A DNA stretch of 64,000 bases. Origin: Desulfovibrio sp. (GTDB lineage: Bacteria; Desulfobacterota; Desulfovibrionia; Desulfovibrionales; Desulfovibrionaceae). Of the stretch, positions 2-23,133 are shown piece by piece. The stretch is taken from positions 868,001-932,000 of the forward strand of contig JAQYWK010000001.1 in assembly GCA_030145055.1 (NCBI GenBank), read 5' to 3'. The notes beneath the pieces were generated by a model, which saw nothing but the letters and a program-made list of their open reading frames with translations, had not been told where the DNA came from and searched no databases. Positions within the stretch are counted from its first letter, which is position 1, and every line of letters starts with the position of its first letter. The translations under genes and the position numbers were made by a program.

Positions 2-250
2 CGCAGACTAACTCCCAATGACATGCTTGTTGCTATCAGCAGTTCCGGGGATTCTCCGAATGTTGTAAATGCTTGTCGTTTTGCTTCTGAGGTGGGCGCT
101 TCGGTGATCACTGTTACCGCTATGGGGGCAGAAAATAAAATGCGCCAGATTGGAGATCTTAATTTTTGGATTCCCGCAGATACTTACGGTATGGCCGAAA
201 CAGGTCATGCGTGTATTCTTCATTACTGGATGGACTCAGTTTCTATATAA
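2..250 (+). CDS. C-terminal fragment of SIS-domain sugar-phosphate isomerase-like protein
   Basis: The open frame enters from the left window edge and stops at a TAA, so the N-terminal half lies outside. The visible part reads LVAISSSGDSPNVVNA, the phosphosugar-binding loop (S-x-S-G-x-S/T) of SIS domains, followed by the typical V-I-T-V-T-A strand. SIS proteins such as GmhA (sedoheptulose 7-phosphate isomerase) or DiaA have this arrangement. The gene is followed 22 bp later by a radical SAM gene on the same strand, so it probably belongs to the sugar operon. A GmhA-like role would fit the transketolase and HAD genes downstream, but the missing half prevents a firm assignment. Confidence 0.75.
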   Translation, partial: RRLTPNDMLVAISSSGDSPNVVNACRFASEVGASVITVTAMGAENKMRQIGDLNFWIPADTYGMAETGHACILHYWMDSVSI

Positions 251-272
251 ATTTTAGAAGGATAGAGGGATT

Positions 273-1346
273 ATGTCTAACGATGAATTTCGTATAGATT
301 CTCATAAGTTACTGTTTCATCCACAAAGAGTCGCCAATTGGATGAATGGTGAAAATATTTATCCATTGTACATGGAACTTAGCCCCGCTGGAGCGTGCAA
401 TCACCGATGCCGTTTTTGCGGGCTTGATTTTGCGGGCTACAAACCTGTTTTTATGGACGGAGAGAAGCTTGGCGTCCGGCTCGATGAGATGGGTAAACTT
501 GGTGTTAAGAGCATCATGTATGCAGGTGAGGGTGAGCCTTTTCTGAACAAGAAGATGACAGATATTATTTTACGCACTAAAAATGCGGGGATTGATGTTG
601 CTTTGACCACAAATGGTGTGCTTATGACCCCTGAAATAAGCGAAAAAATATTGAAGGCTATGAGCTGGATTAAAGTTAGTCTTAATGCAGGAACGCCTGA
701 AACTTATGCTAAAATTCACGGGACAGACTCGGCTGATTTTGAAAAAGTGATGAAGAATCTTGAGGCCGCCGTTGCTATTCGCAAAAAGTTGAATGCAAAC
801 TGTGCTCTTGGTGCTCAGATTTTATTACTCCCTGAAAATTCAGGAGAAATAGAAACCCTTGCCGTGAGATGTAGAGATATCGGTTTGGACTATTTAGTTG
901 TGAAGCCATATTCGCACCATCCTCAGTCTGAAGGTCAGGAATATGCTGACATAGTCTATGAGGATTACACCGAACTTGCTGCGAAAGTTAACAGCTACAG
1001 CACAGAATATTTTAATGTCGTTTTCCGTCTTGATTCCATGAAATCATGGGATGAAAAAAAGCATACGTACAATCGCTGTCATGCACTGCCGTTCTGGTCC
1101 TATGTTGATTCATATGGAAATATCTGGGGTTGCAGTGTTTATTTGCAGGATGAGCGCTTTCTTTACGGAAATGTTTTCGAACAAAGTTTCGAAGATATTT
1201 GGACGGGCGAAAAACGAGCCGAGTCCATGAAGTGGTGTGCTGATAATCTTGATCCTCATAATTGCCGAGTTAATTGCCGTATGGATAAAATTAATACCTA
1301 TTTATGGGAGCTTGTTAATCCGAAAGCTCATGTCAATTTTATATAG
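273..1346 (+). CDS. Radical SAM/SPASM-type enzyme, first of two paralogues
   Basis: A 357-residue protein with the radical SAM cluster motif C-x3-C-x2-C at residues 42, 46 and 49 (CNHRCRFC), then G-E-G-E-P as the SAM-contacting motif. The C-terminal third has several cysteines (around CSVY and CADNLDPHNCRVNC) resembling a SPASM or twitch auxiliary-cluster domain. It ends in HVNFI, exactly as the radical SAM protein at 5630-6733 does, and the two align along their length, so they are paralogues. The start is supported by a strong AGAAGG/GAGGG ribosome site. It acts in the cytoplasm, probably on a sugar or sugar nucleotide given the neighbours; the substrate is unknown. Confidence 0.85.
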   Translation: MSNDEFRIDSHKLLFHPQRVANWMNGENIYPLYMELSPAGACNHRCRFCGLDFAGYKPVFMDGEKLGVRLDEMGKLGVKSIMYAGEGEPFLNKKMTDIILRTKNAGIDVALTTNGVLMTPEISEKILKAMSWIKVSLNAGTPETYAKIHGTDSADFEKVMKNLEAAVAIRKKLNANCALGAQILLLPENSGEIETLAVRCRDIGLDYLVVKPYSHHPQSEGQEYADIVYEDYTELAAKVNSYSTEYFNVVFRLDSMKSWDEKKHTYNRCHALPFWSYVDSYGNIWGCSVYLQDERFLYGNVFEQSFEDIWTGEKRAESMKWCADNLDPHNCRVNCRMDKINTYLWELVNPKAHVNFI

Positions 1347-1388
1347 TATGTTTGCCGCTATTTATTTGAATACATATTTGAGGATGCC

Positions 1389-2048
1389 ATGATTTTAGGA
1401 TCAGATTTCGACAATACTATGGTTGATTATAATGCGCTATTTTATCAAGCTGCGTTAGGAATCGGCTTAGTTGATGGTTCCGTAGCCGCGAATAAAACCG
1501 CAGTACGTGACCATATACGGAAATCTGATGGCGGGGAGATTCTATGGCAAAAGTTGCAAGCGGAAGTTTATGGACCTCGCATTAATGAGGCTGTTCTGTT
1601 TTTAGGTTTGTGTGACTTTTTGACCCTTTGTATCAAAAATAAAATCCCTGTGTATGTGGTGAGTCACAAAACCCGTTTTGCCTGCCGCGGAGATGTTGAT
1701 TTGCGCGAGGCTGCTCTCAGTTTTATGGAAAAGAACGATCTTTTCAATTCGTCTCCTTATGGGCTGAGTCTTGAGCGCGTTTTTTTTGTAGACTCCAGAT
1801 ATGAGAAGGGCGAAATTATAAAATCACTCAATTGTGATGTGTTTGTAGATGACTTGATTGAAGTCTTTTGTGAGTCTTCTTTTCCCGCTGATATTTCTAA
1901 ATTTATGTTTGCGCCGCAAGTAATAGAGACTCCGCTAGAAGTAGATAGTCTGCTTGAAATTGAGATGGTCAAAACATGGGACGAGCTGTCAGAGATTATT
2001 TTCGCCGAACCATTTATTTCTACTGTTGGGTTGAAAGATGGAAAATAA
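1389..2048 (+). CDS. HAD-superfamily hydrolase-like protein
   Basis: A 219-residue protein that opens with ILGSDFDNTMVDY, the HAD motif I (D-x-D-x-T/V) with the nucleophile and acid/base aspartates. A later segment FFVDSRYEKGEIIK and DVFVDDLIEV resembles motifs III/IV. HAD enzymes of this size are usually phosphatases; in a sugar operon the expected substrate is a sugar phosphate, as for GmhB. The start has GAGG seven bases upstream. The 3' end overlaps the next gene by 11 bp, so the two are probably translationally coupled. The substrate is inferred from context only. Confidence 0.75.
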   Translation: MILGSDFDNTMVDYNALFYQAALGIGLVDGSVAANKTAVRDHIRKSDGGEILWQKLQAEVYGPRINEAVLFLGLCDFLTLCIKNKIPVYVVSHKTRFACRGDVDLREAALSFMEKNDLFNSSPYGLSLERVFFVDSRYEKGEIIKSLNCDVFVDDLIEVFCESSFPADISKFMFAPQVIETPLEVDSLLEIEMVKTWDELSEIIFAEPFISTVGLKDGK

Positions 2049-3078
2049 GGATCTCATTCGCATATTCGGAGAAAATCCCATAGAAATTGTACCTATTGGT
2101 GGCGGCGGAAATAGCAAAGTTTGGAAAGTCACGCTTAAGTCTGGTCAGATCCGGACCGTGAAAGAGTATTATCTTTTATGTGCGGATTGGCAGGATCGCA
2201 TGAATGCAGAGTTCAAGGCCTTTTCGTTGGTACGCGAGCATGGGATTTTGTGTGTGCCTGAACCTTTGCGAATGGATCTTGAGGCAGGAGCAGCGGTCTA
2301 TTCTTTTGAAGTTGGTCGCAAGGTCGATGCTAATAATATTGAGCTTGAAAAATTGGATAATTTTGTCCAGTTTGCCGGGCAGCTATTTGAAATTTCAAAG
2401 GAAAAAGAAACTTCTTCCTATCGGGCGGCAAAAGCTAATTGCTTAACGCAAGCCGCGATTGAAGAACAACTTGAGTGCCGGATTAAAGCATTGAAAGATT
2501 TGGATGCAGGTGATGATGATCTTGCTGCGGAATTGAAATCGTTTTTGACGAGTGAGTTTATACCACTCTATCAGGAAATAGCTTTATGGCGGCGCGGCCA
2601 GCTACAACTCGCGGGGATTGATGGGTACGCGCTTAAGCAGGGCGAGTGGACTTTAAGTCCTTCGGACTTCGGTCTCCACAACGCGTTGTTAAAAGATGAT
2701 GGAACATTTGTTTTTGTAGACTTTGAATATTTCGGGCGAGATGATCCGGCAAAGATGGTCAGTGACTTTATGCTACATCCTGCAATGAGTTTAAGCTCTG
2801 AGCAAATCCGCAGAGTTTATGATGGGTTAGATAAAGTTTTTGGGTGCGAGGAATACCAAGTCCGGCTTAGGACTTTATTGCCGCTGGTCGGGCTTAAGTG
2901 GTGTACGATTTTTTTGAATGAATTTTTGCCGCATGGTTTAGCTCGCAGGGTCCATGCTGCCGGTAAAGATATAGAATTTCAGAGTGCAAGGCGACTTCAG
3001 TTAGATAAAGCTCTGAAACAATTCCAAATGATTAATGATGGATACGAGGATTATTTAGATGTCATTGTCAACAATTGA
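2038..3078 (+). CDS. Aminoglycoside phosphotransferase (APH)/choline-kinase-fold kinase
   Basis: A 346-residue protein with a kinase-like glycine-rich start (IGGGGNSKVWKV), a lysine strand (TVKEYYLL), and the APH catalytic loop LSPSDFGLHNALL followed by the metal-binding VFVDFEYFG. In the standard APH loop the sequence is H-x-D-x-x-x-x-N; here the position corresponding to His is Ser (S-P-S-D-F-G-L-H-N), while the catalytic Asp and metal Asn are kept. It overlaps both neighbours (11 bp with the HAD gene, 20 bp with the transketolase subunit). The likely role is phosphorylation of a small sugar or alcohol in the same pathway rather than antibiotic resistance. Confidence 0.75.
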   Translation: MENKDLIRIFGENPIEIVPIGGGGNSKVWKVTLKSGQIRTVKEYYLLCADWQDRMNAEFKAFSLVREHGILCVPEPLRMDLEAGAAVYSFEVGRKVDANNIELEKLDNFVQFAGQLFEISKEKETSSYRAAKANCLTQAAIEEQLECRIKALKDLDAGDDDLAAELKSFLTSEFIPLYQEIALWRRGQLQLAGIDGYALKQGEWTLSPSDFGLHNALLKDDGTFVFVDFEYFGRDDPAKMVSDFMLHPAMSLSSEQIRRVYDGLDKVFGCEEYQVRLRTLLPLVGLKWCTIFLNEFLPHGLARRVHAAGKDIEFQSARRLQLDKALKQFQMINDGYEDYLDVIVNN

Positions 3079-3892
3079 GCCGTCCTGCGGTGATGAACGC
3101 TCTTCTTCATTGCGCAGAACCATTTTGCACACTATGCGTTGCGGCGGTCGCGGTCATTTGGCGTCGGCCTATTCGCTGGTAGAAATTTTGCGTGTTCTCT
3201 ACGATGATATTTTAATATTTGATTCAAAAAATCCAGACTGGGTAGAGCGGGATAGATGTATTCTAAGTAAGGGGCACGGGTGTCTGGCTTTGTATGCAAT
3301 TCTCGCCGATAAAGGGTTTTTCCCGAAAGAAGAGCTGGAAAAATTTTGTTCAGGTGACACTATTTTGGGCGGTCATCCTGAGTATCATAAAGTTCCTGGC
3401 GTTGAGGCGACCACTGGCAGTCTCGGGCATGGCCCATCCATCGGAATCGGTTATGCCTTAAGTGCTCGAATGCGCGGAAACGATGCGCGTGTTTTTGTTA
3501 TTACCGGTGACGGTGAGATTAATGAGGGTTCTGTCTGGGAAGCGGCCATGTGCGCCAGTAAACATAAGCTTGAAAATTACACTTTGCTTGTTGATTACAA
3601 TAAATTGCAGTCGAGCGGACCTGTTGCTGAGGTCCAGCCTCTAGAGCCGCTTGTGGATAAGTGGAAAGCGTTTGGCTTTGCCGTAAGAGAAGTAGACGGA
3701 CATGATCCGGTTGCACTTAAAGAGCTACTAAGCTCAGTCCCTTTTGAAGCAGGTAAGTCTAACGCGATCATTTGCCATACCGTTAAGGGCAAGGGAATCA
3801 AAGACGTTGAACACAATCTTCAGTGGCATCATAAAGCGAACGTGGATTCTGAGCTTATGAACAGCATGTTTGCCGAACTGGGAGGCGAGTAA
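3059..3892 (+). CDS. Transketolase, N-terminal (thiamine diphosphate pyrophosphate-binding) subunit, copy 1
   Basis: A 277-residue split transketolase subunit. ThDP-binding signature GDGEINEGSVWE (G-D-G then N about 27 residues later in LLVDYNKLQ) is intact, as is the early SKGHG motif typical of this subunit. Transketolases move a two-carbon ketol unit between sugar phosphates; the stand-alone N subunit needs the C subunit encoded immediately after. Stop and next start overlap as TAATG, indicating coupled translation at fixed stoichiometry. GAGG lies upstream of the ATG. Its location in a glycan cluster, with a second pair at 17897-19665, argues for a specialised rather than pentose-phosphate role. 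Confidence 0.92.
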   Translation: MSLSTIEPSCGDERSSSLRRTILHTMRCGGRGHLASAYSLVEILRVLYDDILIFDSKNPDWVERDRCILSKGHGCLALYAILADKGFFPKEELEKFCSGDTILGGHPEYHKVPGVEATTGSLGHGPSIGIGYALSARMRGNDARVFVITGDGEINEGSVWEAAMCASKHKLENYTLLVDYNKLQSSGPVAEVQPLEPLVDKWKAFGFAVREVDGHDPVALKELLSSVPFEAGKSNAIICHTVKGKGIKDVEHNLQWHHKANVDSELMNSMFAELGGE

Positions 3893-4818
3893 TGCGTAAA
3901 GCTTGCCTACAGGAAGTTCACAGGTTGGCAGGAGTGGATGAACGCGTAGTATTTATAGGTTCTGACTTAGGGTTTGGAACCCTTGATGAAATGCGCAAGG
4001 ACTATCCCGAAAGATTTTTCATGGAAGGTATAAGCGAAGCTAATATTCTGGGCATGGCTGCCGGAATGGCTCTCGACGGTTGGATGCCGTACGTTAATAC
4101 CATTGCTCCTTTTATTACTCGCCGTGCATACGAGCAGGTCATAGTTGATCTTTGTATGCATAATGTTCCGGTCCGTCTCATTGGTAACGGAGGCGGTGTT
4201 GTTTATGCTCCTTTAGGGCCGACCCATCAGGCGATTGAAGATTTAGCTGTAATGCGGGCGGCTCCCAATATGACTGTTGTCGCTGTCGCTGACGCGGATG
4301 AAATGCGCAGGCTTATGCCGTTGACATTGAATGAATCTGGCCCGATCTATATTCGTCTTGCTAAAGGTTACGATCCTATTGTTACTGACGATTCACAGCC
4401 TTTTATTATCGGGCGAGGATTGCCGTTTCAAAAAGGAAAGGATCTCCTGCTCGTCACCACCGGAATAGGTCTCAGGCTTGCGCGGGAATCTATGTCTGCA
4501 CTTGAAGAAAATGGGCTATCCGTAGGTTTATTGCATATGCCTACAATCAAGCCTTTTGATTCAGAGATGCTTCTTGAAATGAGTTCGCAGGTAAAAGCTG
4601 TGATCAGTGTTGAAGAGCATTCTGTAATCGGAGGACTTGGCAGCGCCGTTGCTGAGGTACTGGCAGAAGCGTGCCTTGATAAGCCGTTACGATTTAAACG
4701 TCTCGGTTTGCCTGATTGTTTTGCTGATAGTTATGGATCGCAACTTTCACTTATGGCTGGCTACGGGCTTTCTGCAGATGGAATTGTTAAAGCTGCTGAA
4801 ACGCTGCTTGAAATTTAA
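3892..4818 (+). CDS. Transketolase, C-terminal subunit, copy 1
   Basis: A 308-residue partner of the preceding gene. It carries the pyrimidine-binding domain with FMEGISEANILGMAAGMAL, where the Glu of ISEAN is the cofactor-activating glutamate, followed by the transketolase C-terminal domain (ISVEEHSVIGGLGSAVAE). Length is usual for the split form. It overlaps the N subunit by one base. Family knowledge fixes the chemistry (ketol transfer with ThDP); the acceptor is unknown. It differs clearly from the second C subunit at 17897-18829, so the pairs are not a recent duplication. Confidence 0.92.
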   Translation: MRKACLQEVHRLAGVDERVVFIGSDLGFGTLDEMRKDYPERFFMEGISEANILGMAAGMALDGWMPYVNTIAPFITRRAYEQVIVDLCMHNVPVRLIGNGGGVVYAPLGPTHQAIEDLAVMRAAPNMTVVAVADADEMRRLMPLTLNESGPIYIRLAKGYDPIVTDDSQPFIIGRGLPFQKGKDLLLVTTGIGLRLARESMSALEENGLSVGLLHMPTIKPFDSEMLLEMSSQVKAVISVEEHSVIGGLGSAVAEVLAEACLDKPLRFKRLGLPDCFADSYGSQLSLMAGYGLSADGIVKAAETLLEI

Positions 4819-4840
4819 TACGGCGTAGGAGGATACTATC

Positions 4841-5614
4841 TTGGCTGATGATTTGTCCCTAAGACATGAGAATGAAAGAGATCAAAAGGATGAGTTAGAA
4901 AAAATATTTGCTGATACAGATCTCAGCGTATTTGATATGTTCAGGAATTTTCCTGTTTTTGCTCCAAGGTATAATCTTGCGCGGTTTTTAGTTCATTATG
5001 AGTTGTTTAAACGTATCGCCAACCTCCCCGGAAATATTATTGATTTAGGCGTTTTCAGGGGCGCCTCTACTTTTACCTTCGGTAAATTGGCGGAAATATT
5101 TTGCCCAACAGACGTTCGTAAGGTCGTCTACGGTTTCGATACCTTTGAAGGATTTCCTGACGTAGAAGACGTTGACGGCGGCGTTAGTGATGAATTGGAT
5201 CGCAAAAAGGGCGGGTTTTGCGGAGGTCAAAATATCGAACAGGATCTCTTGCAAGCGCGCACTGCCATGAATGCAGATAAACATCTTCGTCATATTGAGC
5301 GCATTCAGTTTGTTAAGGGGGATATGTGTAAGACCATTCCCCAGTTCGTTGAAGATAAGGGAAATGGACTTCGCATTGCTCTGCTAAATATTGATTGTGA
5401 TCTTTATGAACCAACCAAGGTTGCGTTGGAACACTTTGTTCCGCTGATGGTTCGTGGTGGTATTATCATGCTGGATGAGTATGCCCATGAAACTTTTGGC
5501 GGTGAATCCAAAGCTGTTGATGAATATTTCATAGCCAACTTTGGTAAACGTCCCAAAATAGAAAAATTTACATGGCACAGCGTGCCTTCGGGCTATATTG
5601 TTGTAGATTGGTAG
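4841..5614 (+). CDS. TylF/MycF-like sugar O-methyltransferase
   Basis: A 257-residue class I SAM methyltransferase. The SAM motif I is IIDLGVFRGAST, followed by VYGFDTFEGFPD, the pattern of the TylF (macrocin O-methyltransferase) family, and by metal-ligand-like NIDCDLYEPT and MLDEYAHETFGG. Those enzymes methylate sugar hydroxyls in a metal-dependent way. The start is a TTG, supported by an AGGAGG ribosome site eight bases upstream and no better candidate. It stands between the transketolase pair and the second radical SAM gene, so O-methylation of the sugar made by this operon is likely. Confidence 0.82.
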   Translation: MADDLSLRHENERDQKDELEKIFADTDLSVFDMFRNFPVFAPRYNLARFLVHYELFKRIANLPGNIIDLGVFRGASTFTFGKLAEIFCPTDVRKVVYGFDTFEGFPDVEDVDGGVSDELDRKKGGFCGGQNIEQDLLQARTAMNADKHLRHIERIQFVKGDMCKTIPQFVEDKGNGLRIALLNIDCDLYEPTKVALEHFVPLMVRGGIIMLDEYAHETFGGESKAVDEYFIANFGKRPKIEKFTWHSVPSGYIVVDW

Positions 5615-5629
5615 CTCCAGAGAAAAATT

Positions 5630-6733
5630 ATGAGTAAATTAATATTGGATGGAACAAAATTGGCTTGGCATAAGGAGCGTGTAGAGGCTCTGCTTGCCGG
5701 AGAGCGAGTTGCGCCTATAACTATTGACTGTGCGCTCACTAGGTCTTGCACTTACAACTGTTGTTATTGCATCGGGAAGTTGCAGGAGAACGAGAGGAAG
5801 AAGCTAGACCTAGACTCCATGTATCGTTTTTTAGACGATTCTGCCGAGATTGGAGTTAAAGGAATTAGTTTTGTAAGTGATGGGGAGTCAACTTGTAGCC
5901 CCCATTTGTACGAATCCATCTTGCGTGGAAAGCAAAATGGTATTGATATGGCTCTTGGGACTAACGGTTATTTGCTTCAAGATGAACGATTAGAAGATAT
6001 TCTTCCCGCATTGACCTACCTTCGGTTCAATATCTCAGCAGGTGAGCGGGAAAGATATGCAGAGATAATGGGAACTTCTCTAGAAGCGTATGATAAGGTC
6101 GTAAGTACCATAAAAAAATGTGTGGCGATCAAGCGGGAAAAAGGGCTTGATGTTACTATTGGCTTACAGATGGTGCTTATGCCTCAGTTGGCTGACCAAG
6201 TGCTCCCTTTAGCTCAGTTGGGTCTTGAGCTTGGCGCGGATTATCTGGTTATCAAGCATTGCAGTGATGATGATCAGGGAAATCTAGGGGTTGATTACGC
6301 GAAGTATTATGAACTGACAGATCTCCTTAAAGAAGCTGAAACTTTTTCTACTGATACATATTTGGTCCAAGCTAAGTGGTCTAAAATTATGAGCGGTGGT
6401 GACCGTAAGTATGAGCATTGTTACGGGGCTCCCCTTATGATGCAATTTAGCGGATCAGGTTTAGTCGCTCCTTGCGGTGGACTTTTTAATACCCGATTTA
6501 AAAAATATCATATCGGAAACTTGGCAGATATGTCCTTCAAAGAAATGTGGAAGAGTGACAAGTACTGGAATATATTAAGAGAGTTGTCCTCAGAAAAATT
6601 TGATTGCCGAAAATTGTGTGTTTCTCTGTGTCTTCAGCACAAAGTTAACGAAGTTTTGTGGGATATAAAGCACGGTAATTTAAAGCTCGAAACTCCAGAA
6701 GGAGATGCGCCGGGTCACGTTAATTTCATATAA
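5630..6733 (+). CDS. Radical SAM/SPASM-type enzyme, second paralogue
   Basis: A 367-residue paralogue of the protein at 273-1346. The cluster motif C-x3-C-x2-C is at residues 40, 44 and 47 (CTYNCCYC). The central strands ALGTNG, NISAG and DYLVIKH match those of the first copy, and both end in HVNFI. The C-terminal cysteines (CGGLF, FDCRKLCVSLC) suggest auxiliary iron-sulfur binding. Having two related radical SAM enzymes with different substrate-binding residues around a transketolase pair suggests two successive or alternative radical steps on related substrates. Its start lies 15 bp after the methyltransferase with only a weak ribosome site. Confidence 0.85.
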   Translation: MSKLILDGTKLAWHKERVEALLAGERVAPITIDCALTRSCTYNCCYCIGKLQENERKKLDLDSMYRFLDDSAEIGVKGISFVSDGESTCSPHLYESILRGKQNGIDMALGTNGYLLQDERLEDILPALTYLRFNISAGERERYAEIMGTSLEAYDKVVSTIKKCVAIKREKGLDVTIGLQMVLMPQLADQVLPLAQLGLELGADYLVIKHCSDDDQGNLGVDYAKYYELTDLLKEAETFSTDTYLVQAKWSKIMSGGDRKYEHCYGAPLMMQFSGSGLVAPCGGLFNTRFKKYHIGNLADMSFKEMWKSDKYWNILRELSSEKFDCRKLCVSLCLQHKVNEVLWDIKHGNLKLETPEGDAPGHVNFI

Positions 6734-6863
6734 AAGATACGCTGAAATGGTAGTTTGAATAAGGCTAAACCTAAAATGACATTAAGTAGAATAGTGTGTC
6801 AGTAGTAGTTTGCTCAGCTGAGGCAAAACGATAATTTATTAGAATGATATTAGAGCAGGATGC

Positions 6864-8750
6864 ATGAAGTTTTTAATAGTTATTCCAAGATTTATTGACC
6901 GTTTAGGCGATTACTATGACTTTCCATTGGGACTGGCTATCATCTCCGCTGTGCTTAAGAGAGACGGGCATGCTGTTGAGGTTCTGAACCTGAATCATTG
7001 TTTCACCGAGGATGTCGGTGAGCAACTTCGTCAGGCTATTGATGAGCGTGGCGCTGGGGTTGTTTGCTGCGGAGGTTTGTCCGCCCATTATCATGCAATA
7101 ATGGATGTGGTTAACGGAGCTCGGGGGGCAGAGAAGGATGTAACTTTGATCCTTGGTGGAGGTATAATCAGTAGTGAACCAGAACTAATGACAGCAGAGC
7201 TTGATGCTGATTATGCGGTCATTGGTGAGGGTGAACTGACCATGGCAGATTTGGCCAGGGCCTTATCCGCAGGAGAAGATGCCACTCAACTTTTAGGAAC
7301 ACTGCACAAGACTGCATCGGGCCGGGTTATTCGCAACGCACCTCGTCCCAATATTGAAGATTTGAACTATGTTCCCTTTCCAGATTATGAAGGGTTCGGT
7401 GTGGATGACTATCTTTCTTTTCAACGTCCGAGCGATAATGTTTATATGAATGTGCAGGATGAACCTAGGCTTCTTCCCGTTATTCTAAGCAGATCCTGTC
7501 CATACCAGTGCACATTTTGTTTTCATCCTCTTGGCAATAAATATCGCCGCAGTTCTCTTGATAATTTTTTTGATCAAGTCGACGTTCTCGTCAAAAAGTA
7601 TAAGATAAATATGTTGGCAGTCCTTGATGAATTATTTTCTTTGAATAAGGAAAATATGATCGAATTTTGTGAACGTATGAAGCCGTACAATCTCAAATGG
7701 ATTGCACAGTTAAGGGTTGATCAAGTAAGTCGCGAAATGCTTGAAATGCTGAAAGATTGTGGGCTTTTCTATATTAGTTACGGTCTTGAAAGTACGTCGG
7801 AAGTTGTGCTTAAATCCATGAAGAAACATATTACGGCCAAGCAGATTGAGGACGCACTTGCTCTGTCACGTGAGATAGGTATTGGTATTCAGGGTAATTT
7901 TATTTTTGGGGATCCAGCCGAGACTTTAGTTACAGCTAGAGAAACCATTGACTGGTGGGAAAAACATTATTTTTATCACATTAATTTGACCGCGCTTATA
8001 CCTTATCCCGGGTCACAAGTTTATGATTACTGTCTGGAACAAGGACTGATTCAGGACAAAATGGAATTTGTGAAAAAAGGGTGTCCTTCCCTTAATATGA
8101 CTGCTTTAAATAATATTGATTACGGAACTATCTATGCGGAAGCGAGAGATGCCCAAGCTAAGAATAGGCAGTTTGCGAAAAATATTTCAGCCGTGCAAAC
8201 AGGACATGATTCTTATAAAGCAGCACATGCTTATAGTCTAACAATGACCTGTCCGCATTGTGACACTGTTAATGTGTATAATAATTTCAGCTGTAATGAG
8301 TTGGGTGCATTCAAAATTGTATGTCGTCATTGTCATCAAAGAAGTGATGTTCCTTCGTCATATTTTGAACACCTGAATACGAGATGGAAACCTGTAGCCG
8401 CTGCCCTAAAAAAAATAGTGGATTCATCTGCTCCGGTATCGCTTACGCCGGTGGGGGATGTTCTTAATTTTAATGATGGCTTGTTAGCTTTGGGTATTGA
8501 TGTTGATTCACTCAATTTGCAGTACGTGCTTGATTACGATGTAAATAAGGAAGGGCAGACTCTTATGAACCTACCCGTTTTACACCGCAGCCCAAAAAAC
8601 TTAGCCGAGAAGTGCAAGGGGCATTCTTTTCTTATTCTTCCCTGTGAAAACCATCAGCGCATATATGAAGAGTTGCTCCGCTGCGGAGTTGAAAAGGGCC
8701 GTATTGTGTCCTTTGTCAGCCCTGAAGCTTATGAGCCTGAGCGTCCGTGA
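6864..8750 (+). CDS. Cobalamin (B12)-binding radical SAM protein with extra C-terminal region
   Basis: A 628-residue protein. The N-terminal ~150 residues form a B12-binding-like Rossmann domain (LGLAIISAVLKRDGHAVEVLNL, then LILGGGIISSEPE) without an obvious D-x-H-x-x-G base-off motif. The radical SAM core has C-x3-C-x2-C (CPYQCTFCF, about residues 211-218). After about residue 450 there is a zinc-ribbon-like element (CPHCDTVNVYNNFSC and CRHCHQR), then a Rossmann-like tail. Class B enzymes of this type methylate unreactive carbons or rearrange rings. The last gene of the plus convoy, it begins 130 bp after the second radical SAM gene and ends 3 bp from a converging gene. Confidence 0.85.
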   Translation: MKFLIVIPRFIDRLGDYYDFPLGLAIISAVLKRDGHAVEVLNLNHCFTEDVGEQLRQAIDERGAGVVCCGGLSAHYHAIMDVVNGARGAEKDVTLILGGGIISSEPELMTAELDADYAVIGEGELTMADLARALSAGEDATQLLGTLHKTASGRVIRNAPRPNIEDLNYVPFPDYEGFGVDDYLSFQRPSDNVYMNVQDEPRLLPVILSRSCPYQCTFCFHPLGNKYRRSSLDNFFDQVDVLVKKYKINMLAVLDELFSLNKENMIEFCERMKPYNLKWIAQLRVDQVSREMLEMLKDCGLFYISYGLESTSEVVLKSMKKHITAKQIEDALALSREIGIGIQGNFIFGDPAETLVTARETIDWWEKHYFYHINLTALIPYPGSQVYDYCLEQGLIQDKMEFVKKGCPSLNMTALNNIDYGTIYAEARDAQAKNRQFAKNISAVQTGHDSYKAAHAYSLTMTCPHCDTVNVYNNFSCNELGAFKIVCRHCHQRSDVPSSYFEHLNTRWKPVAAALKKIVDSSAPVSLTPVGDVLNFNDGLLALGIDVDSLNLQYVLDYDVNKEGQTLMNLPVLHRSPKNLAEKCKGHSFLILPCENHQRIYEELLRCGVEKGRIVSFVSPEAYEPERP

Positions 8751-8753
8751 CAT

Positions 8754-10277
8754 CTAAAAGAGTTCTTTTGCGTGTTTCCGTAAAAAATAAGAACTAATAG
8801 GTGTTTCGTAGCGACTATTAAACACTGAAGGTTTAAAAAGTGAGTGGTATTGTTCTTTAAGTTTAAGATCTTCCTCTGTGTAGGTCCATGTCCCATTAAC
8901 TTTTTGGTGCATTTCTTTCATGGCCTCAAGAATCTCTTCTTCGGTATTATCAATGAGTTCGATATCTGAGTTTACGAATTTATCAATTGGCCAACGCCCA
9001 ATTCCTGATTCGAGGAGTTCATGTACTTTTAGTAGTCTTTTTTCTTTTTTGCTCCATGTTAATTTAAACATGGCAAGGTCCTCAGGGTAACAATATTCAA
9101 TTTTTTCAAGCCGTATGGCATTGACCCGCAAACATGGAACTCTAAAAACTTTTGCTACGTGCTGCAATCCACTTTGTACCCCTACGAAAAATTTACACTT
9201 TGATGCTAGGTAAATGTCTAGGAAGTCAGACCTATGATTGCTTTTGGCGTAGTCAATAAAGTTTGGATGATCAATTTTAAGTGGATCTTTGACAATACTA
9301 CCCATTCTCAAAACATTATAGTTGAGATTCAGCAGTTCATTCACGCCTGATTTAAAATTATTGATATCCATGTTACGGGGTTCTTGGTGATCGGCATCAT
9401 TAAACTGAGGAATGGTTTGCTGCAGGAACATAGAGTCTCTGCCTAGGATACATACACTTGGGCGATCCTTATCAAGGTTCATTGCTTCGAAGTCTTTCTG
9501 CCCTTTATCGTTCTGTTCCGCTGTAAAGTGGATGTGACCCTTTGTATCATGCATAAGCCCGGTAGAATCTCGTGCGTGAGATCCTGCTCTGGTAGTTAAG
9601 AGCAACTCGTGTTTTGCTGTCATGTTGAATCGGCGAATTGCATCATGGATGTGCTCAAACCACTTGCTTGTATGCATTTTTTGAGAAAATAATTCGGCCA
9701 AAGTCTCATTTGAAACAGAGTTGTCTTTAAAATAAAATAAATCCAAATATGCGTGATGTTTCCCTAGAGATTTTTCAGATAGGTAAATGTCGCAGTCAAA
9801 AGCGAGATGTCCAATGCGGGTAGAATAAATTTCTGCAACACGTATGATTTTGAACATGGATGAAAATTTGATGATTAATGCGATTAGTCCGAGGCTTATG
9901 AATTGAGCAATTTCTTTGAGCACAGAGGGCTTGGGGGGAGATGTTATGAAATCTTCATTTCTCACCGAGGTTTTAATAACTAGATCTTTGAAGTTGGAAT
10001 AAAAATTTACAGAATTTACAATATTATCATGGTCATAGGTGGCTCCGCATACAATAGTAATCTCTTCAGGCTTAAAGAGGAGCATCGCTTTTATTAGTGG
10101 AGGAAAAAAGGGATTAAAGGTGCCTTTGAAGTAGCTTGTATTTTGATCTGGATATGCACCACGATCTCTTTCTGGAACAAGTAAAAGTACTTCGGCATCT
10201 GCAAAGCTAGCTTTAGCAATGTATTCTTTAATAAGATGTTGCGGGGCCGCGCCGATGATAAGTGTTCTTTTTTTCAT
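8754..10277 (-). CDS. TIGR04372-like putative glycosyltransferase
   Basis: A 507-residue protein at the end of the minus convoy. The C-terminal half carries features I associate with the TIGR04372 glycosyltransferase family: NYNVLRMGSIVKDPL, a segment with DYAKSNHRSDFLDIYL, CKFFVGVQSGLQHVAKVF and PCLRVNAIRLE. This is a GT-B-like nucleotide-sugar pocket arrangement, found in surface polysaccharide loci. A short hydrophobic stretch near residues 125-140 (ISLGLIALIIKF) could anchor it to the membrane. The donor and acceptor are unknown. Family assignment is from memory of motif order, not from a search. Confidence 0.6.
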   Translation of the reverse strand: MKKRTLIIGAAPQHLIKEYIAKASFADAEVLLLVPERDRGAYPDQNTSYFKGTFNPFFPPLIKAMLLFKPEEITIVCGATYDHDNIVNSVNFYSNFKDLVIKTSVRNEDFITSPPKPSVLKEIAQFISLGLIALIIKFSSMFKIIRVAEIYSTRIGHLAFDCDIYLSEKSLGKHHAYLDLFYFKDNSVSNETLAELFSQKMHTSKWFEHIHDAIRRFNMTAKHELLLTTRAGSHARDSTGLMHDTKGHIHFTAEQNDKGQKDFEAMNLDKDRPSVCILGRDSMFLQQTIPQFNDADHQEPRNMDINNFKSGVNELLNLNYNVLRMGSIVKDPLKIDHPNFIDYAKSNHRSDFLDIYLASKCKFFVGVQSGLQHVAKVFRVPCLRVNAIRLEKIEYCYPEDLAMFKLTWSKKEKRLLKVHELLESGIGRWPIDKFVNSDIELIDNTEEEILEAMKEMHQKVNGTWTYTEEDLKLKEQYHSLFKPSVFNSRYETPISSYFLRKHAKELF

Positions 10278-10330: not shown

Positions 10331-11365
10331 TTATATTCCGTCGATTTCAAGCAACATCCGCTCCACTGTAGGAGCTTCATATTTTCGTGAAATATAATAA
10401 ACCGCTACAACTTGTCCTTTAGAATTTAGAGCTAAATCCCCGTATCCTCCGTGGAATCGTCCCCCTTTATACCATGCAAGGGTTTCGGGCCAACTCCATG
10501 TCTCTCCGTGATCTTTTGATATGGAAAGGGCGACTCGGCATTTGCGATTCTTACGGATCATACCTCGGTAAATCATCAGAATGGATTCATCCGGCATAAG
10601 TAATAAAGCGGGGGCTTCGCCATAGAGTCCGATAGGTTCCGGGGTGGACCATGTTAGTCCGTCATCATCTGAATGTGATTTAAAGATCCCTTCGTAGCAT
10701 GGCTGTTGTCTTATAAGTGCGAGAATTCTGTCGGATTTAAGACGTACAATGGACGTTTCATTCAGTCTATAATTCTGAGTGCTGAATTTAAACAACAAGG
10801 TTTGTGATGATATTTCAAGTGTTTCAGGATTGATCTTGAAAGTTCCACATCCGGGGCCGTTGTAAAAAGTACCTATGATATTTTTCCCGTCTAATGCGGG
10901 AATGAAGTGTCCGAATGATGCCCATTCTCCCGGAGGAAGATTGAGAGGTTTGCGCTCTTGAAATGTAATGCCGCCATCTGTGCTGAGTGACAAATAATTT
11001 TCTCTCAGTTCGGAGGAATGTGTGCGCGTTATTAACGCAACTCGGTTGTCACCGAGGGAAGTAACTAGCGCATCATGCTCATTCGTGTGGTTATTTTCAT
11101 GGCTGATGACTAATTTAGGCTGGTCGAAATTTTGTCCGTCATCACTTGAACGGGTGATATAAACATCCCCCGCCATTCCATGATCCATTACATTACGAAG
11201 GCTCGGATGGATGTTTACAGCTCTGCGAAATCCTACAAGTAAGTCAGTTCCGACCTTTGTTATGGTCGGGAAGGACTGGTACCCATCCCATTCAAGCGGT
11301 GTGATGCGTTTGGTATCTAATATTTTTATTGAAAGTTTTGGGCGTTTCATATTACTCACGGGCAT
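10331..11365 (-). CDS. Sialidase-like BNR/Asp-box repeat protein
   Basis: A 344-residue protein with four Asp-box motifs (S/T-x-D-x-G-x-T/S-W/F): SSDDGQNF, STDGGITF, SDDDGLTW and SKDHGETW, spaced as in six-bladed beta-propeller exo-sialidases. No export signal is visible, so it is probably cytoplasmic. In a pseudaminic acid locus it could be a nonulosonate-processing enzyme or a sugar-binding propeller; the FRIP-type catalytic arginine motif is not recognisable. The first ATG overlaps pseC by 10 bp; an internal ATG at 11350 is possible. Confidence 0.7.
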   Translation of the reverse strand: MPVSNMKRPKLSIKILDTKRITPLEWDGYQSFPTITKVGTDLLVGFRRAVNIHPSLRNVMDHGMAGDVYITRSSDDGQNFDQPKLVISHENNHTNEHDALVTSLGDNRVALITRTHSSELRENYLSLSTDGGITFQERKPLNLPPGEWASFGHFIPALDGKNIIGTFYNGPGCGTFKINPETLEISSQTLLFKFSTQNYRLNETSIVRLKSDRILALIRQQPCYEGIFKSHSDDDGLTWSTPEPIGLYGEAPALLLMPDESILMIYRGMIRKNRKCRVALSISKDHGETWSWPETLAWYKGGRFHGGYGDLALNSKGQVVAVYYISRKYEAPTVERMLLEIDGI

Positions 11366-12489
11366 GTTTTAAGGATTGCATCAAGGCCTTTGGCACAGGA
11401 ATCAACCTGACGCTCAGTCATTCCGGGATGAAGTGGGAGAGTCATAATCCCTTCGTAAACTTCTTCGGCAACAGGGCAAAGGCCGGGGCCGGTATTGAAA
11501 TTCTCCATATAATATGGATGGTAATGAACTGGTATATAATGAACGTTCACGCCGAATCCCTGATTGCGCATTCCTTCAAATGCAGCTTTTCGCTTATGAG
11601 CCGGAACTTTTACAATATAAAGATGAAAGGCATGCAGTGCGTCTTTTTTTGTTATGAGGGGCTTAATCTCGTGATGATTTAGAAATAGGGTTTTGTACTT
11701 GGCGGCATGTTGGCGGCGTATTTTTAAAAAATTATTCAGTTTTTTTAGCTGGCTGAGTCCGAGGGCGCATTGGATGTCTGTTATGCGGTAGTTGTAACCT
11801 AACTCCTGCATCTCGTAGACCCATGTGCATTTTTCTGAGCGGGCGGAGGCATCCATGTTAATGCCGTGATTGCGAAAGGATCGCATGCGTTTTGCAAGTT
11901 CTGGCTCGTCAGTAAGAGCCATTCCACCTTCGCCTGTGGTGATGTGTTTTACCGGGTGAAAACTTAGTACTGAAATATCTGCTAACGATCCGGCTGAGTT
12001 GCCGTGCTCATCTTTCGCGCCGATGGAGTGGCAACAGTCGCCTACAAGTTTGAGATTGTGCTCTTCACAAATAGTTTTAAGGGCTACGTAATCACAGGTC
12101 TGTCCCGCGAAATCAACAGCAATGATTGCGCGGGTTTTTTTAGAAATTTTATGAATAACACTTTCTGGATCTATCAGCAGGGTGTCAGGATGAATATCTG
12201 CAAAAATAGGGGTCGCGCCCATGTATACTATACAGTTTGCAGAGGCGGCAAAGGTGAGTGGTGAGACTATGACTTCGTCGCCAGGCTTGATCTCAAGAGC
12301 GTGCATTGCTGCGTGTAGAGCCGCTGTTCCACTTGAAACAGCAACAGCTTCATTTACGCCGATGTATTTTGCTACGCCGTGTTCAAAGTCTGTAACAATT
12401 GGGCCGGTTGTAAGCCAGTCTCCGCGTAGGACTTTAACTACTTCAGAAATATCATCTTCATCAATAATATGCTTGCCGTAGGGGATCAT
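11356..12489 (-). CDS. pseC: UDP-4-amino-4,6-dideoxy-N-acetyl-beta-L-altrosamine transaminase
   Basis: A 377-residue DegT/DnrJ/EryC1/StrS aminotransferase. It begins IPYGKHIIDEDDI and has RGDWLTTGP and SSGTAALHAAMHAL, the pattern of PseC. The PLP lysine lies in SFHPVKHITTGEGGM. PseC transfers an amino group from glutamate to C4 of the 4-keto sugar made by PseB, the second step to CMP-pseudaminic acid. It starts 3 bp after pseB, which supports the assignment. Confidence 0.9.
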   Translation of the reverse strand: MIPYGKHIIDEDDISEVVKVLRGDWLTTGPIVTDFEHGVAKYIGVNEAVAVSSGTAALHAAMHALEIKPGDEVIVSPLTFAASANCIVYMGATPIFADIHPDTLLIDPESVIHKISKKTRAIIAVDFAGQTCDYVALKTICEEHNLKLVGDCCHSIGAKDEHGNSAGSLADISVLSFHPVKHITTGEGGMALTDEPELAKRMRSFRNHGINMDASARSEKCTWVYEMQELGYNYRITDIQCALGLSQLKKLNNFLKIRRQHAAKYKTLFLNHHEIKPLITKKDALHAFHLYIVKVPAHKRKAAFEGMRNQGFGVNVHYIPVHYHPYYMENFNTGPGLCPVAEEVYEGIMTLPLHPGMTERQVDSCAKGLDAILKTCP

Positions 12490-12492
12490 CTT

Positions 12493-13464
12493 CTACACCA
12501 GATTAAGTAGGTCTTCTTTGCTGAGCCACTTGTCATTGTTGTCAGAACTGTATTCAAAGTCATCTGCTACGCTTACCCCTGAGCAATGTGATTTAGCTCG
12601 TTCAAAGAAACGGTAGGCAGGCTGGATTATGAAGTAATCGTCAAATTCGAAAGTGTTGCGAGCCTCGTTCATGGGGACCATGACTTCGTGCATCTTTTCG
12701 CCCGGGCGGATTCCTGTAATGTTCATTTCGCATTCAGGGCAAAGGGCTTTTGCCATGTCGTCGATGCGCATGCTTGGCAATTTGGGGATAAAAATTTCGC
12801 CCCCCTGCATAACTTCAAGACTGTTGCCGACAAATTCTATCGCGGCATCTAGAGTAATCCAAAAGCGGGTCATGGCGGGGTGAGTAATACGTACTGTGCC
12901 GGTTTCTTTTGCTGCTAGAAAACGAGGGACAACGCTTCCTCTGCTGCCAATCACGTTTCCATACCGGACTACTGCAAATCTCGTGGAGTCTTGTCCTGCA
13001 TAGCTGTTGCCATTAACGAAAAGTTTGTCCGAGCAGAGTTTTGTTGCTCCATACAGATTTGCCGGATTGGCGGCTTTGTCGGTGCTTAGAGCTATTACGC
13101 GGGAGACATTTTTATCAATTGCAGCTTCAACAATATTTTGAGCACCGAGAATGTTAGTTTTAACAGCCTCATAGGGGTTGTATTCACAGGCTGGAACTTG
13201 CTTTAAAGCCGCCGCGTGGATGACAATGTCAATTTTATTAAAAGCTCTGCGTAGTCTGTCCGCATCACGCACGTCTCCGAGGAAATAGCGCAAACATGGG
13301 TAGTCTTCTGCTGAAAACTTTTGCTGCATTTCATGCTGCTTAAGTTCATCTCTGCTGAAAATTACAAGTCTTTTAGGCCGGTATTTGTTTAGTGTCATTT
13401 CAACAAATTTCTGACCGAAGGAGCCTGTCCCACCAGTAACTAAAATTGATTTGTCATTAAACAT
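12493..13464 (-). CDS. pseB: UDP-N-acetylglucosamine 4,6-dehydratase (C5-inverting)
   Basis: A 323-residue extended SDR. NAD-binding motif is TGGTGSFG; the catalytic region reads STDKAANPANLYGATK, with the Asp-Lys pair and Y-x3-K characteristic of PseB/FlaA1-type inverting dehydratases. It makes UDP-2-acetamido-2,6-dideoxy-beta-L-arabino-4-hexulose, the first committed step of pseudaminic acid synthesis. It directly follows the GH57-like gene with no gap and precedes pseC by 3 bp, so it is within one operon. Confidence 0.92.
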   Translation of the reverse strand: MFNDKSILVTGGTGSFGQKFVEMTLNKYRPKRLVIFSRDELKQHEMQQKFSAEDYPCLRYFLGDVRDADRLRRAFNKIDIVIHAAALKQVPACEYNPYEAVKTNILGAQNIVEAAIDKNVSRVIALSTDKAANPANLYGATKLCSDKLFVNGNSYAGQDSTRFAVVRYGNVIGSRGSVVPRFLAAKETGTVRITHPAMTRFWITLDAAIEFVGNSLEVMQGGEIFIPKLPSMRIDDMAKALCPECEMNITGIRPGEKMHEVMVPMNEARNTFEFDDYFIIQPAYRFFERAKSHCSGVSVADDFEYSSDNNDKWLSKEDLLNLV

Positions 13465-15420
13465 TTATACAATGCCTGTTTTTGAATTCGGTTTAATGCT
13501 GAATCCTGTAGAAAAATTATATTGGTTGTCGTCACAGACTGAATGCACGCACGTTTCATCCATTTCCTGCATAGAAAATGAAACCCGCACAAATGGAGAA
13601 GGATTCGCCTGACGGCATGTTAACATTGCAATAAATGCATGTTCTTGCATTATTGGAGTAATTTCGAGAAAATTTTCTTCTCCCCCTAAGATTAATGCTG
13701 AATCCGTCATTCCCGTTGCTTGCGAGGACGATACCAAAAAAGACACATTATTGCTATGGTCAAAGGTTTTCCCTTTTAAGGAGAAAGTCTCGCTTTTTCC
13801 TCCACTTGCAACGCGGTAGAACAGCCCGTCCGGATTCAGTTGATCCGTCATCAACGTAATGTGCCCGAGCCTGATAATTCCTTGGGGTCTTGCTGTAAAA
13901 TTGAATCTGTAAAGTATATCAATTTGTGCTTTGTCCTTGTGAATTCTAACAGCCTTATCAAGGTGTCCCTGATGTATTTCCATTCCGCATGAAATTTGTG
14001 TGTATTCGTCCAGTTCCAAGACCTTAGGGGTAATCTTGCAAAGGTCCGTCTCTTTCGGACTTCCTGGACCTTCAATGATCAGGTGGCCGGAAAAGAAGTC
14101 TGCGCCCAAATCTATATCGTCAAAATATCCATGCTCCTTGGTTCCGAATAAAGGAACATGGCCGTGATCTGCAAAACTGGCTTTGTGTATAGCCAGCCCT
14201 TTTGCTGTGTTTAAAATAACAGAGGTTGAGGCTGTTTTAATATTTAAAAGCCGGCTCTCATGTGTAGAGATATCTCCTTTAACATCAAATTGCGGACCTC
14301 TTACCGGGGCTCTGACTGACTCAGCTAGTTTGCTCAGCCTCGTAGTCATTTTATTAAATCTGTCTTGCGTAATATGCGTTCTGAAATCACTGGACCAGCA
14401 AAAGCAAAGCTCCTTCCATTTTTTTTCAGTTCCGGCGATAGATTGATCTGCCTTTTCAAGTTTAGCCGCAATGGCGCGGCATAGTGAGTTTATAAAAAAG
14501 TCATTCTTCCCGCTAACTGCCCATCGGGTAAGATTATATTTACTTTGTTTTTTTACAGGCACGGGCTGTTCGGTTGAACCTAAAACTAGTTTTTTCCCTG
14601 CAGACTTGTGCCCTAAATCGTTTAAAGCTTGTGAAGGCAAATAAAAATGATGGTCTCTCTCGCGCAGAGCATTGAATGCTTCTGAAATGCGATTCCACTC
14701 GCTTTCATCACTTGTCCTTGCTTCGGTTTTGTATCTTCCCGGTCTGAAATCAAATATCTCGGCGTCGTTGCCATAAATGGGCAACCACCCATTCCCCGTT
14801 CCCATGTTTTCAATGTAATCTAGGTACTCAGGTAATTCCAAATCGCCATGTACTAGCCGTTGTAGCTTCTGGAATATCATGGAACGACTCCATAAAATGG
14901 GAATAGATTCCCCCGAAACACCTAGTGCCCGTTGCGGGAAATGTTGAAGCTGATCGTCCCAGTTATCTGCAAAACGGGCAGGATTATCATAATCCATGAA
15001 TACGCCTTTGTATCCAGCCTCGAGGTAATGGGCGACAAGCCCTGCGGACCATGCTTGCTCATTCACGAGCGCAATTACTGGCGTCAGTCTAAGAATCTCT
15101 TGATATACTTGGTTGCCGATTCGAAGGTTCGCTTTGTTCACAGATGCTGGAACAAGCGGGCCGATTACCTGCCCATATCCGCTGCCGATGAATTCACATT
15201 TGCCAGAATCAAGCAGGCTGCGAAATTTGTCGATCCATGCGGGATCAATATCTTGGATTATTTCAAGCGTAATAGCTGATGCTTCAATTCCAAGCGGAAA
15301 CCCTTCATATTCAATGAGACGTAATAAAGGCCAATAGCATCGTTCTATGACTTCCGGTCTGCTTTCTACCGGAATGGAGGAGAACATGAGATTGAGATGA
15401 AATATCGCAAAATGTTTCAT
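13465..15420 (-). CDS. Glycoside hydrolase family 57-like protein
   Basis: A 651-residue protein. The N-terminal 300 residues look like the GH57 (alpha-amylase/4-alpha-glucanotransferase-like) barrel: AIFHLNLMFSSIP near the start, a central CEFIGSGYGQVIGPLVP, and LVNEQAWSAGL, where the Glu would be the catalytic nucleophile of GH57 motif 3, followed by GYKGVFMDYDNP. The remaining half is beta-rich and not recognised. No signal peptide is visible. Its position directly before pseB is unusual. It may process a glycan precursor or be catalytically dead; the activity cannot be read from the sequence. Confidence 0.65.
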   Translation of the reverse strand: MKHFAIFHLNLMFSSIPVESRPEVIERCYWPLLRLIEYEGFPLGIEASAITLEIIQDIDPAWIDKFRSLLDSGKCEFIGSGYGQVIGPLVPASVNKANLRIGNQVYQEILRLTPVIALVNEQAWSAGLVAHYLEAGYKGVFMDYDNPARFADNWDDQLQHFPQRALGVSGESIPILWSRSMIFQKLQRLVHGDLELPEYLDYIENMGTGNGWLPIYGNDAEIFDFRPGRYKTEARTSDESEWNRISEAFNALRERDHHFYLPSQALNDLGHKSAGKKLVLGSTEQPVPVKKQSKYNLTRWAVSGKNDFFINSLCRAIAAKLEKADQSIAGTEKKWKELCFCWSSDFRTHITQDRFNKMTTRLSKLAESVRAPVRGPQFDVKGDISTHESRLLNIKTASTSVILNTAKGLAIHKASFADHGHVPLFGTKEHGYFDDIDLGADFFSGHLIIEGPGSPKETDLCKITPKVLELDEYTQISCGMEIHQGHLDKAVRIHKDKAQIDILYRFNFTARPQGIIRLGHITLMTDQLNPDGLFYRVASGGKSETFSLKGKTFDHSNNVSFLVSSSQATGMTDSALILGGEENFLEITPIMQEHAFIAMLTCRQANPSPFVRVSFSMQEMDETCVHSVCDDNQYNFSTGFSIKPNSKTGIV

Positions 15421-23131: not shown

Positions 23132-23133
23132 GT

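Follow-up and report, generated by a model that had tools for sequence, protein, structure and literature searches.

A widespread, probably heptose-type sugar cassette in which a radical SAM enzyme and a short-chain dehydrogenase/reductase occupy the same gene position

Heptose-type nucleotide sugars are formed through the ADP-/GDP-heptose pathway (GmhA, HldE or HddA/HddC, GmhB; HldD). The octose pathway of the lincosamides likewise joins chain extension to an isomerase, a kinase, a HAD phosphatase and a nucleotidyltransferase, but extends the chain with a transaldolase, and we know of no radical SAM enzyme in it, nor of a swap with a short-chain dehydrogenase/reductase (SDR). In Campylobacter jejuni, where capsular GDP-heptose is modified by the Cj1427 route, C4 oxidation of GDP-heptose is on record (PMC10680097). 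The present analysis concerns an operon at positions 2-8750 of a 64,000-nucleotide stretch of a Desulfovibrio sp. contig (JAQYWK010000001.1, 868,001 to 932,000), the whole of which is called the window in the following. The operon resembles the ADP-/GDP-heptose pathway in having a SIS isomerase, a protein with PfkB and cytidylyltransferase-like domains and a HAD-type protein, but departs from it in that these enzymes score below curated cut-offs, the HAD protein has no NCBIfam match and the HldE domains are reversed, and in the addition of an APH kinase, a dedicated split transketolase and radical SAM enzymes.

The operon represents one form of a cassette that occurs sporadically in many phyla and the reality of which is hardly open to doubt: a widespread and conserved gene set, probably a variant of heptose-type nucleotide-sugar biosynthesis, ordered HldE-SIS-X-HAD-APH kinase-split transketolase-methyltransferase-Z, of which literature searches directed at this combination of genes found no description (titles and abstract openings, with subscription journals thinly covered). 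Slot X is taken either by a radical SAM protein (rSAM_A) or by an SDR of the NAD-dependent type (SDRc), and the two exclude each other. An earlier note, made from the sequence of the window alone, had seen on one strand an isomerase, a HAD-type protein, a kinase, a thiamine diphosphate (ThDP) transketolase, a TylF-like protein and three radical SAM genes; open reading frames and Pfam matches confirm this observation, and its interpretation as a sugar pathway for a surface glycan is partly supported. Nine co-directional genes lie within 2-8750, all at the places given there:

2-250, plus strand: 3′ end of SIS, a GmhA-like sugar-phosphate isomerase (SIS_2, 29.8 bits)
273-1346, plus strand: rSAM_A, a radical SAM/twitch (SPASM) enzyme (75.5 bits)
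1389-2048, plus strand: candidate HAD-type phosphatase (invariant HAD motifs, weak phosphoserine phosphatase match)
2038-3078, plus strand: APH-like small-molecule kinase, the marker of the cassette (Pfam APH, 25.3 bits)
3059-3892, plus strand: ThDP-binding (N) subunit of the split transketolase, TKN (Transketolase_N, 131.5 bits)
3892-4818, plus strand: Pyr and C-terminal subunit of the split transketolase, TKC (Transket_pyr, 104.6 bits; Transketolase_C, 83.3 bits)
4186-4227, plus strand: NGGGVVYAPLGPTH, TKC residues 99-112, the signature replacing the canonical transketolase His and Asp (TKC alignment)
4841-5614, plus strand: TylF-like O-methyltransferase (Pfam TylF, 52.0 bits)
5630-6733, plus strand: rSAM_B, a second radical SAM/twitch (SPASM) enzyme (54.6 bits)
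6864-8750, plus strand: B12-binding radical SAM enzyme (B12-rSAM), accessory (Pfam B12-binding, 58.0 bits; Radical_SAM, 58.4 bits)

The APH-like kinase served as the marker in a scan over GTDB species genomes, which returned at least 585 stretches, at least 570 of them confirmed, the best 80 being kept. With the window proteins as queries, these best 80 loci hold TKN (76), APH (76), TKC (75), HldE (58), HAD (53), SIS (46) and an rSAM_A-like protein (30), besides an upstream methyltransferase (11), GSU2086 (10), B12-rSAM (9), NeuB (4) and rSAM_B (3). The marker is sporadic in even samples, being found in 8 of 395 genomes of the phylum (E ≤ 1e-20), in 20 of 289 genomes of the class to which the genome of locus L150 belongs and in 44 of 288 genomes of the window's family (E ≤ 1e-40 for both), where the earlier note had called for a search of the same neighbourhood. 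Judged by record titles, some of which, from metagenome-assembled genomes, look mislabelled (for instance Klebsiella, L129, and Chitinophaga, L107), the cassette spans at least 10 phyla; a lineage-limited operon is ruled out by this spread, and the gene set can no longer be regarded as special to this genome. Clustering of the neighbours in 95 loci added a 220-aa methyltransferase (MT221), two types of SDR, a zinc alcohol dehydrogenase (ADH) and a pair the representatives of which are a TIGR04324 2-oxoglutarate (2OG)-Fe oxygenase and a TIGR04323 protein (NCBIfam). Since both these families are named 'sporadic carbohydrate cluster', annotators had noticed part of the cassette, and the earlier claim that no described pathway has such a set stands with that reservation. 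The clusters that match TIGR04323/TIGR04324, c18 and c20, are found in 20 and 22 of 97 cassettes; with the cassette profiles neither is labelled in the window's copy, the NCBIfam models having covered 20 operon and neighbour proteins, and the phrase itself was not found in the literature searched.

Locus genes were found by six-frame search. Once L124 and L087 had been dropped as duplicates, 148 loci were labelled, five of them (L111, L113, L145, L146, L223) without an APH label; 15 were collapsed at 90% or higher APH identity (nine of these from the later draws L208-L220, mostly named loci drawn again), and 31 of the remaining 128 were removed for want of TKN, of TKC or of both HldE and SIS, leaving 97. 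The later draws, for which the APH marker was the sole criterion, come from the family, the phylum and a class sampled before and so add loci without widening the taxonomic range, and the labels in the 97-locus count come from profiles trained on the earlier loci only.

The radical SAM proteins of the cassette fall into three clades: the window has a member of A (273-1346) and one of B (5630-6733), but none of C (rC). Where slot X holds SDRc, the gene stands mostly between SIS, GSU2086 or HldE on one side and HAD, APH or TKN on the other. The sole PDB match of the SDRc profile under E 1e-40 is 6vo6, presumably the GDP-heptose C4-dehydrogenase Cj1427. A first count over 70 loci gave 18 with rSAM_A only, 47 with SDRc only, none with both and five with neither, figures that became 18, 42, 0 and 5 after collapse to 65 loci; a later set of 32 loci gave 13, 19, 0 and 0, and the combined 97 loci divide into 31, 61, 0 and 5. 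The SDRc label was cut at 200 bits; at 400 bits the division is 31, 58, 0 and 8, and at 500 bits 31, 54, 0 and 12. No open reading frame in the 31 rSAM_A loci exceeds 144 bits on the SDRc profile; on the rSAM_A profile, the SDRc loci reach 273 bits (the clade B protein of L105) and otherwise at most 154. Among 136 pairs of genes that each occur 15 times or more, rSAM_A/SDRc is the most skewed, 19.5 joint occurrences being expected and none seen, and in the window's family alone 33 loci divide into 21 with rSAM_A, 12 with SDRc and none with both or neither. The position is common to the two: the preceding gene is SIS in 22 of 31 rSAM_A and 27 of 61 SDR loci, and the following gene is HAD in 18 and 25 of them, respectively. 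On a tree of TKN, TKC and APH the label changes 9 times (shuffled mean about 26), at least seven changes in a quick tree and at least five in a careful one being forced by supported branches; independent pairs in the quick tree are opposite in six cases, the same in none and without difference in one (median p 0.03). The swap is always reciprocal in direction, yet the independent events are few. At the level of whole genomes, no rSAM_A match above 140 bits was seen in 21 genomes of the SDRc type (on the sister profiles cassette rSAM_A proteins score 470-627 bits, and cassette SDRc proteins 275-595 bits, with a median of 558). Thus, rSAM_A probably replaces the SDR functionally, and, because its partner in the swap is an NAD-dependent SDR, ordinary oxidation or epimerisation by rSAM_A is more likely than an exotic carbon modification.

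The sequence of rSAM_A contains CX3CX2C (Cys 42, 46 and 49) and four further Cys (269, 287, 331 and 335), all conserved in 20 A-clade sequences, which is the BtrN-type twitch arrangement with one four-Cys auxiliary site, although identity with BtrN, DesII and BlsE is 16-18%. In fold comparison DesII is nearest, with SkfB, SuiB and BlsE within 1 Z; to judge from their family names, DesII and BlsE have sugar nucleotides as substrates, whereas SkfB and SuiB modify peptides. Both twitch proteins of the window (273-1346 and 5630-6733) end in HVNFI, and H-x-N-F-I is found in 20 of 20 A-clade proteins, as if the C-terminus were itself functional.

The transketolase is the second peculiar element. Among solved structures both subunits are closest to the split enzyme of Carboxydothermus (6yaj/6yak), TKN keeps the four active-site His, and the TK_N, pyr and C domains are all present. 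At the two TKC sites that we take to correspond to E. coli His461 (phosphate) and Asp469 (C2 hydroxyl), 91 of 92 aligned proteins are without His (Gly in the window) and 91 of 92 without Asp, 90 of 92 having Leu (as in the window). The exception with both residues is a second gene, not of the cassette type, in L094, and seven of the 92 proteins, some of them from Chlorobiaceae, are shorter at the signature segment, where the alignment is less sure. Canonical His and Asp are retained in the Carboxydothermus chain and in the second split transketolase of the window, which is found at 17897-19665 (minus strand) in a separate minus-strand run, where its neighbours are an SDR (19692-20441) and a methyltransferase. 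Together with two longer frames, of which one may be DXS, this second enzyme makes three TKC-like genes in the genome besides that of the cassette. As judged from these alignments, the cassette enzymes form a distinct subfamily, the substrate of which has likely changed, because cassette TKC proteins lack both substrate-binding residues and the second transketolase keeps them. Such an enzyme may extend the carbon chain of the sugar, as the earlier note had proposed.

With some caution, we favour the reading that the cassette makes a surface-glycan sugar of the heptose type (C7 or longer), activated as a nucleoside diphosphate (NDP) derivative, rSAM_A replacing an NAD-dependent oxidoreductase. 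In such a pathway the APH kinase and the transketolase would supply a C2-extended ketose phosphate, which the GmhA-like SIS would convert to an aldose phosphate; the HldE-like protein would add the 1-phosphate, the HAD protein would take off the terminal phosphate, and the HldE nucleotidyl domain would activate the sugar. The slot-X enzyme would then oxidise the nucleotide sugar, or epimerise it through oxidation and reduction: in rSAM_A, a 5′-deoxyadenosyl radical would abstract a hydrogen of the sugar and the electron would pass to the single auxiliary iron-sulfur cluster, as proposed for BtrN. TylF and rSAM_B would tailor the sugar, replacing the usual MT221 and ADH, rC or 2OG oxygenase. 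That the slot-X step is an oxidation at the level of the nucleotide sugar has an even chance; that the transketolase acts before activation falls just short of one, and action of the transketolase on a keto nucleotide sugar is a minority possibility. Less likely than not is the fuller scheme, in which the special ketol-transferring split transketolase would lead to a C8-or-larger or two-carbon-branched NDP-sugar, rSAM_A would act directly on a nucleotide sugar in the place of an NAD-dependent dehydrogenase, and a radical SAM protein, a zinc ADH or a 2OG-Fe oxygenase would fill the second slot.

Several findings weigh against this reading. SIS is absent in 24 and HAD in 29 of the 97 loci, perhaps in part from contig ends and low sensitivity, and five loci have neither rSAM_A nor SDRc. 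On the careful tree the five independent pairs are opposite in four cases, the same in none and without difference in one (p 0.125). A distant SDR occurs elsewhere in seven of the 21 rSAM_A genomes searched (108-228 bits, A7 profile), the present genome among them; here its gene accompanies NeuB and DegT genes in a separate glycan locus (L230), and the cassette SDR profile gives it 258 bits, which would pass the label cut of 200 but falls short of 275, the lowest score of a labelled cassette SDR. The best folds of rSAM_A tie with the peptide-modifying SkfB and SuiB, and the fold of the APH kinase ties among YtaA, homoserine, choline and sugar 1-kinases. The naming of 6vo6 as Cj1427 is itself presumptive. 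The C. jejuni route shares with the cassette an SDR of this kind, matches to 6vo6 being present in 61 of the 97 cassettes, but in the main text of its description the word 'transketolase' is absent (PMC10680097), and the window has rSAM_A in the SDR slot. In two of the five loci with neither gene, L133 and L173, a B12-binding radical SAM gene stands between SIS and HAD, perhaps as a third kind of slot-X gene.

The same enzymes could be arranged otherwise, with SIS, HldE and HAD giving an ordinary NDP-heptose, the slot-X enzyme turning it into an NDP-keto sugar and the split transketolase adding a two-carbon ketol unit at the new ketone, to yield a branched C9 sugar. This is somewhat unlikely, even if the closest solved relative of the SDR is presumably a C4-dehydrogenase, C4 oxidation of GDP-heptose is on record as cited above, there are split ThDP enzymes that use keto nucleotide sugars as substrates, and the transketolase lacks the His and Asp that we take to hold ordinary phosphorylated, hydroxylated substrates; it gives the APH kinase no obvious task, and the divergence of SIS and HldE (67 and 100 bits against cut-offs of 209 and 181) suggests an altered carbon skeleton from the outset. 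That the transketolase merely makes sedoheptulose 7-phosphate locally, the product being a common glycero-manno-heptose with methyl groups, would suit the families of SIS and HldE and the fact that, of 40 phylum loci that lack the cassette, 37 have a GSU2086-family gene adjoining a SIS (gmhA-like) gene, but is improbable in view of the three other TKC-like genes of the genome and of the special subfamily to which the cassette enzyme belongs. A housekeeping heptose set is unlikely as well, because higher-scoring copies are found elsewhere in the genome: the GmhA equivalog TIGR00441 (cut-off 209.45) gives 67.2 bits for the cassette SIS and 187.6 bits, also below the cut-off, for the GmhA-like gene at C5:62524, and the HldE-like protein, which has both PfkB and CTP_transf_like domains, scores 118.2 and 96.4-99.7 bits on rfaE_dom_I and rfaE_dom_II (cut-offs 345 and 181.5), the latter being exceeded, at 197.5 bits, by another HldE nucleotidyl domain.

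Exclusion in slot X could also stem from the inheritance of two cassette lineages as blocks, the two enzymes differing in action, and the clustering of the labels on the tree and a careful-tree pair test above 0.05 are in keeping with it; yet both labels are present within the window's family as well as in distant phyla, none of the independent pairs changes in the same direction and both genes share one position, and we consider such an origin improbable. Recycling of 5′-deoxyadenosine by the kinase, HAD and transketolase, in a 7-deoxysedoheptulose-like route, might be thought of in an operon with three radical SAM enzymes, and transketolase is named in connection with salvage of this type (PMC8102628); it is rejected as very improbable, since 46 of 97 cassettes without any of the four radical SAM labels (clades A, B and C and the B12-rSAM family) keep kinase and transketolase.

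A pathway with the radical SAM enzymes at its core is rejected: rSAM_A alone stands near the core, and there as an alternative to SDRc, whereas TylF, rSAM_B and B12-rSAM are rare accessories (2, 3 and 8 of 97 loci), and the 46 unlabelled cassettes imply that radical chemistry is not cassette-defining. MT221 is present in 77 loci; TylF, confined to the window and L090, stands in the window at the usual MT221 position and never together with MT221, nor does any locus combine rSAM_B and MT221, exclusions that rest on 2 and 3 cases. Slot Z, after TKC, is held by clade C alone in 34 loci, by ADH in 24, by the 2OG/LIC12192 pair in 19, by clade B in three (window, L090, L105), by clade C with the pair in three and by none of these in 14; ADH and rC are never found together (24, 37 and 0 with both), the independent pairs being too few. 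In its three loci rSAM_B, a clade of its own, accompanies neither ADH nor rC nor the 2OG pair, and is a possible occupant of this tailoring oxidoreductase slot. The tail is modular, as the close relative L083 has the same core, but its last genes encode MT221 and a radical SAM protein whose PglD_N-like start narrowly misses the Pfam cut-off; compared with this locus of the same genus, nine core genes have dN/dS of 0.023-0.223 and are therefore under purifying selection. The tail of B12-rSAM is, read by eye, zinc-ribbon-like. A putative B12-radical SAM paralogue of 608 aa with a radical SAM match is found in a different locus of this genome (L002:6727-8553), near further radical SAM and methyltransferase-like genes.

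Adjacent genes of the operon overlap or stand 15-130 bases apart, promoter- and terminator-like matches along the gene run show no clear excess over chance, and the next gene (8754-10277) is on the opposite strand. The operon start, however, lies before the window, which takes in the second half of a longer series of genes, so that the extent given in the earlier note was incomplete: a class I methyltransferase gene and NeuB-like, HldE-like and GSU2086-family genes, the last three preceding the complete SIS in the same direction (L001:14220-18250), lie upstream on the same contig and strand.

Upstream of the window, plus strand: NeuB-family protein (288 aa, 206 bits)
Upstream of the window, plus strand: HldE-like fusion, cytidylyltransferase-like and PfkB domains in reversed order (PfkB, 56.0 bits; CTP_transf_like, 53.1 bits)
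L001:16693-17688, plus strand: GSU2086-family protein (NF052581, 368.5 bits, cut-off 250)
L001:17693-18250, plus strand: complete GmhA-like SIS gene, 185 aa (Pfam SIS_2, 62 bits)

The HAD protein matches no Pfam or NCBIfam model at E ≤ 0.001, GmhB models, which are presumably in the NCBIfam library, included; D6/D8-N-T, S92-H-K, K140 and DD154-155 are invariant in 11 aligned proteins, and the profile weakly matches phosphoserine phosphatase among solved structures (18.3 bits, E 0.011). In the APH-like kinase, which has a kinase fold, D210, N215 and D228 are invariant. The GSU2086 family (NF052581) is found in 250 of 395 phylum genomes, its profile giving no more than about 20 bits to ArgZ-type chains, and GSU2085-2087 (hldE, unknown, gmhA) are among the Geobacter genes affecting electrode growth in the transposon data of PMC5585712.

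The surface-glycan part of the earlier interpretation agrees with this setting, in which HldE- and GmhA-like genes are adjacent and PseC and PseB, both over curated cut-offs, lie beside the cassette (11356-13464 and 21388-23203, minus strand), with a Glyco_tran_28_C protein and, by eye, a candidate cytidylyltransferase further along; this region is perhaps a pathway to a pseudaminic-type acid, which the NeuB-like gene of the cassette run may serve instead. A GH57-like protein (13465-15420) and a BNR-repeat, sialidase-like protein (10331-11365), both on the minus strand, are also encoded in the surface-glycan region.

Radical SAM proteins in glycan loci are frequently without an assigned reaction, and a slot shared with an SDR offers one that is concrete and testable. 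A transketolase subfamily with an altered substrate pocket could serve carbon-carbon bond formation, and the cassette points to an unrecognised sugar skeleton across the phyla in which it is found.

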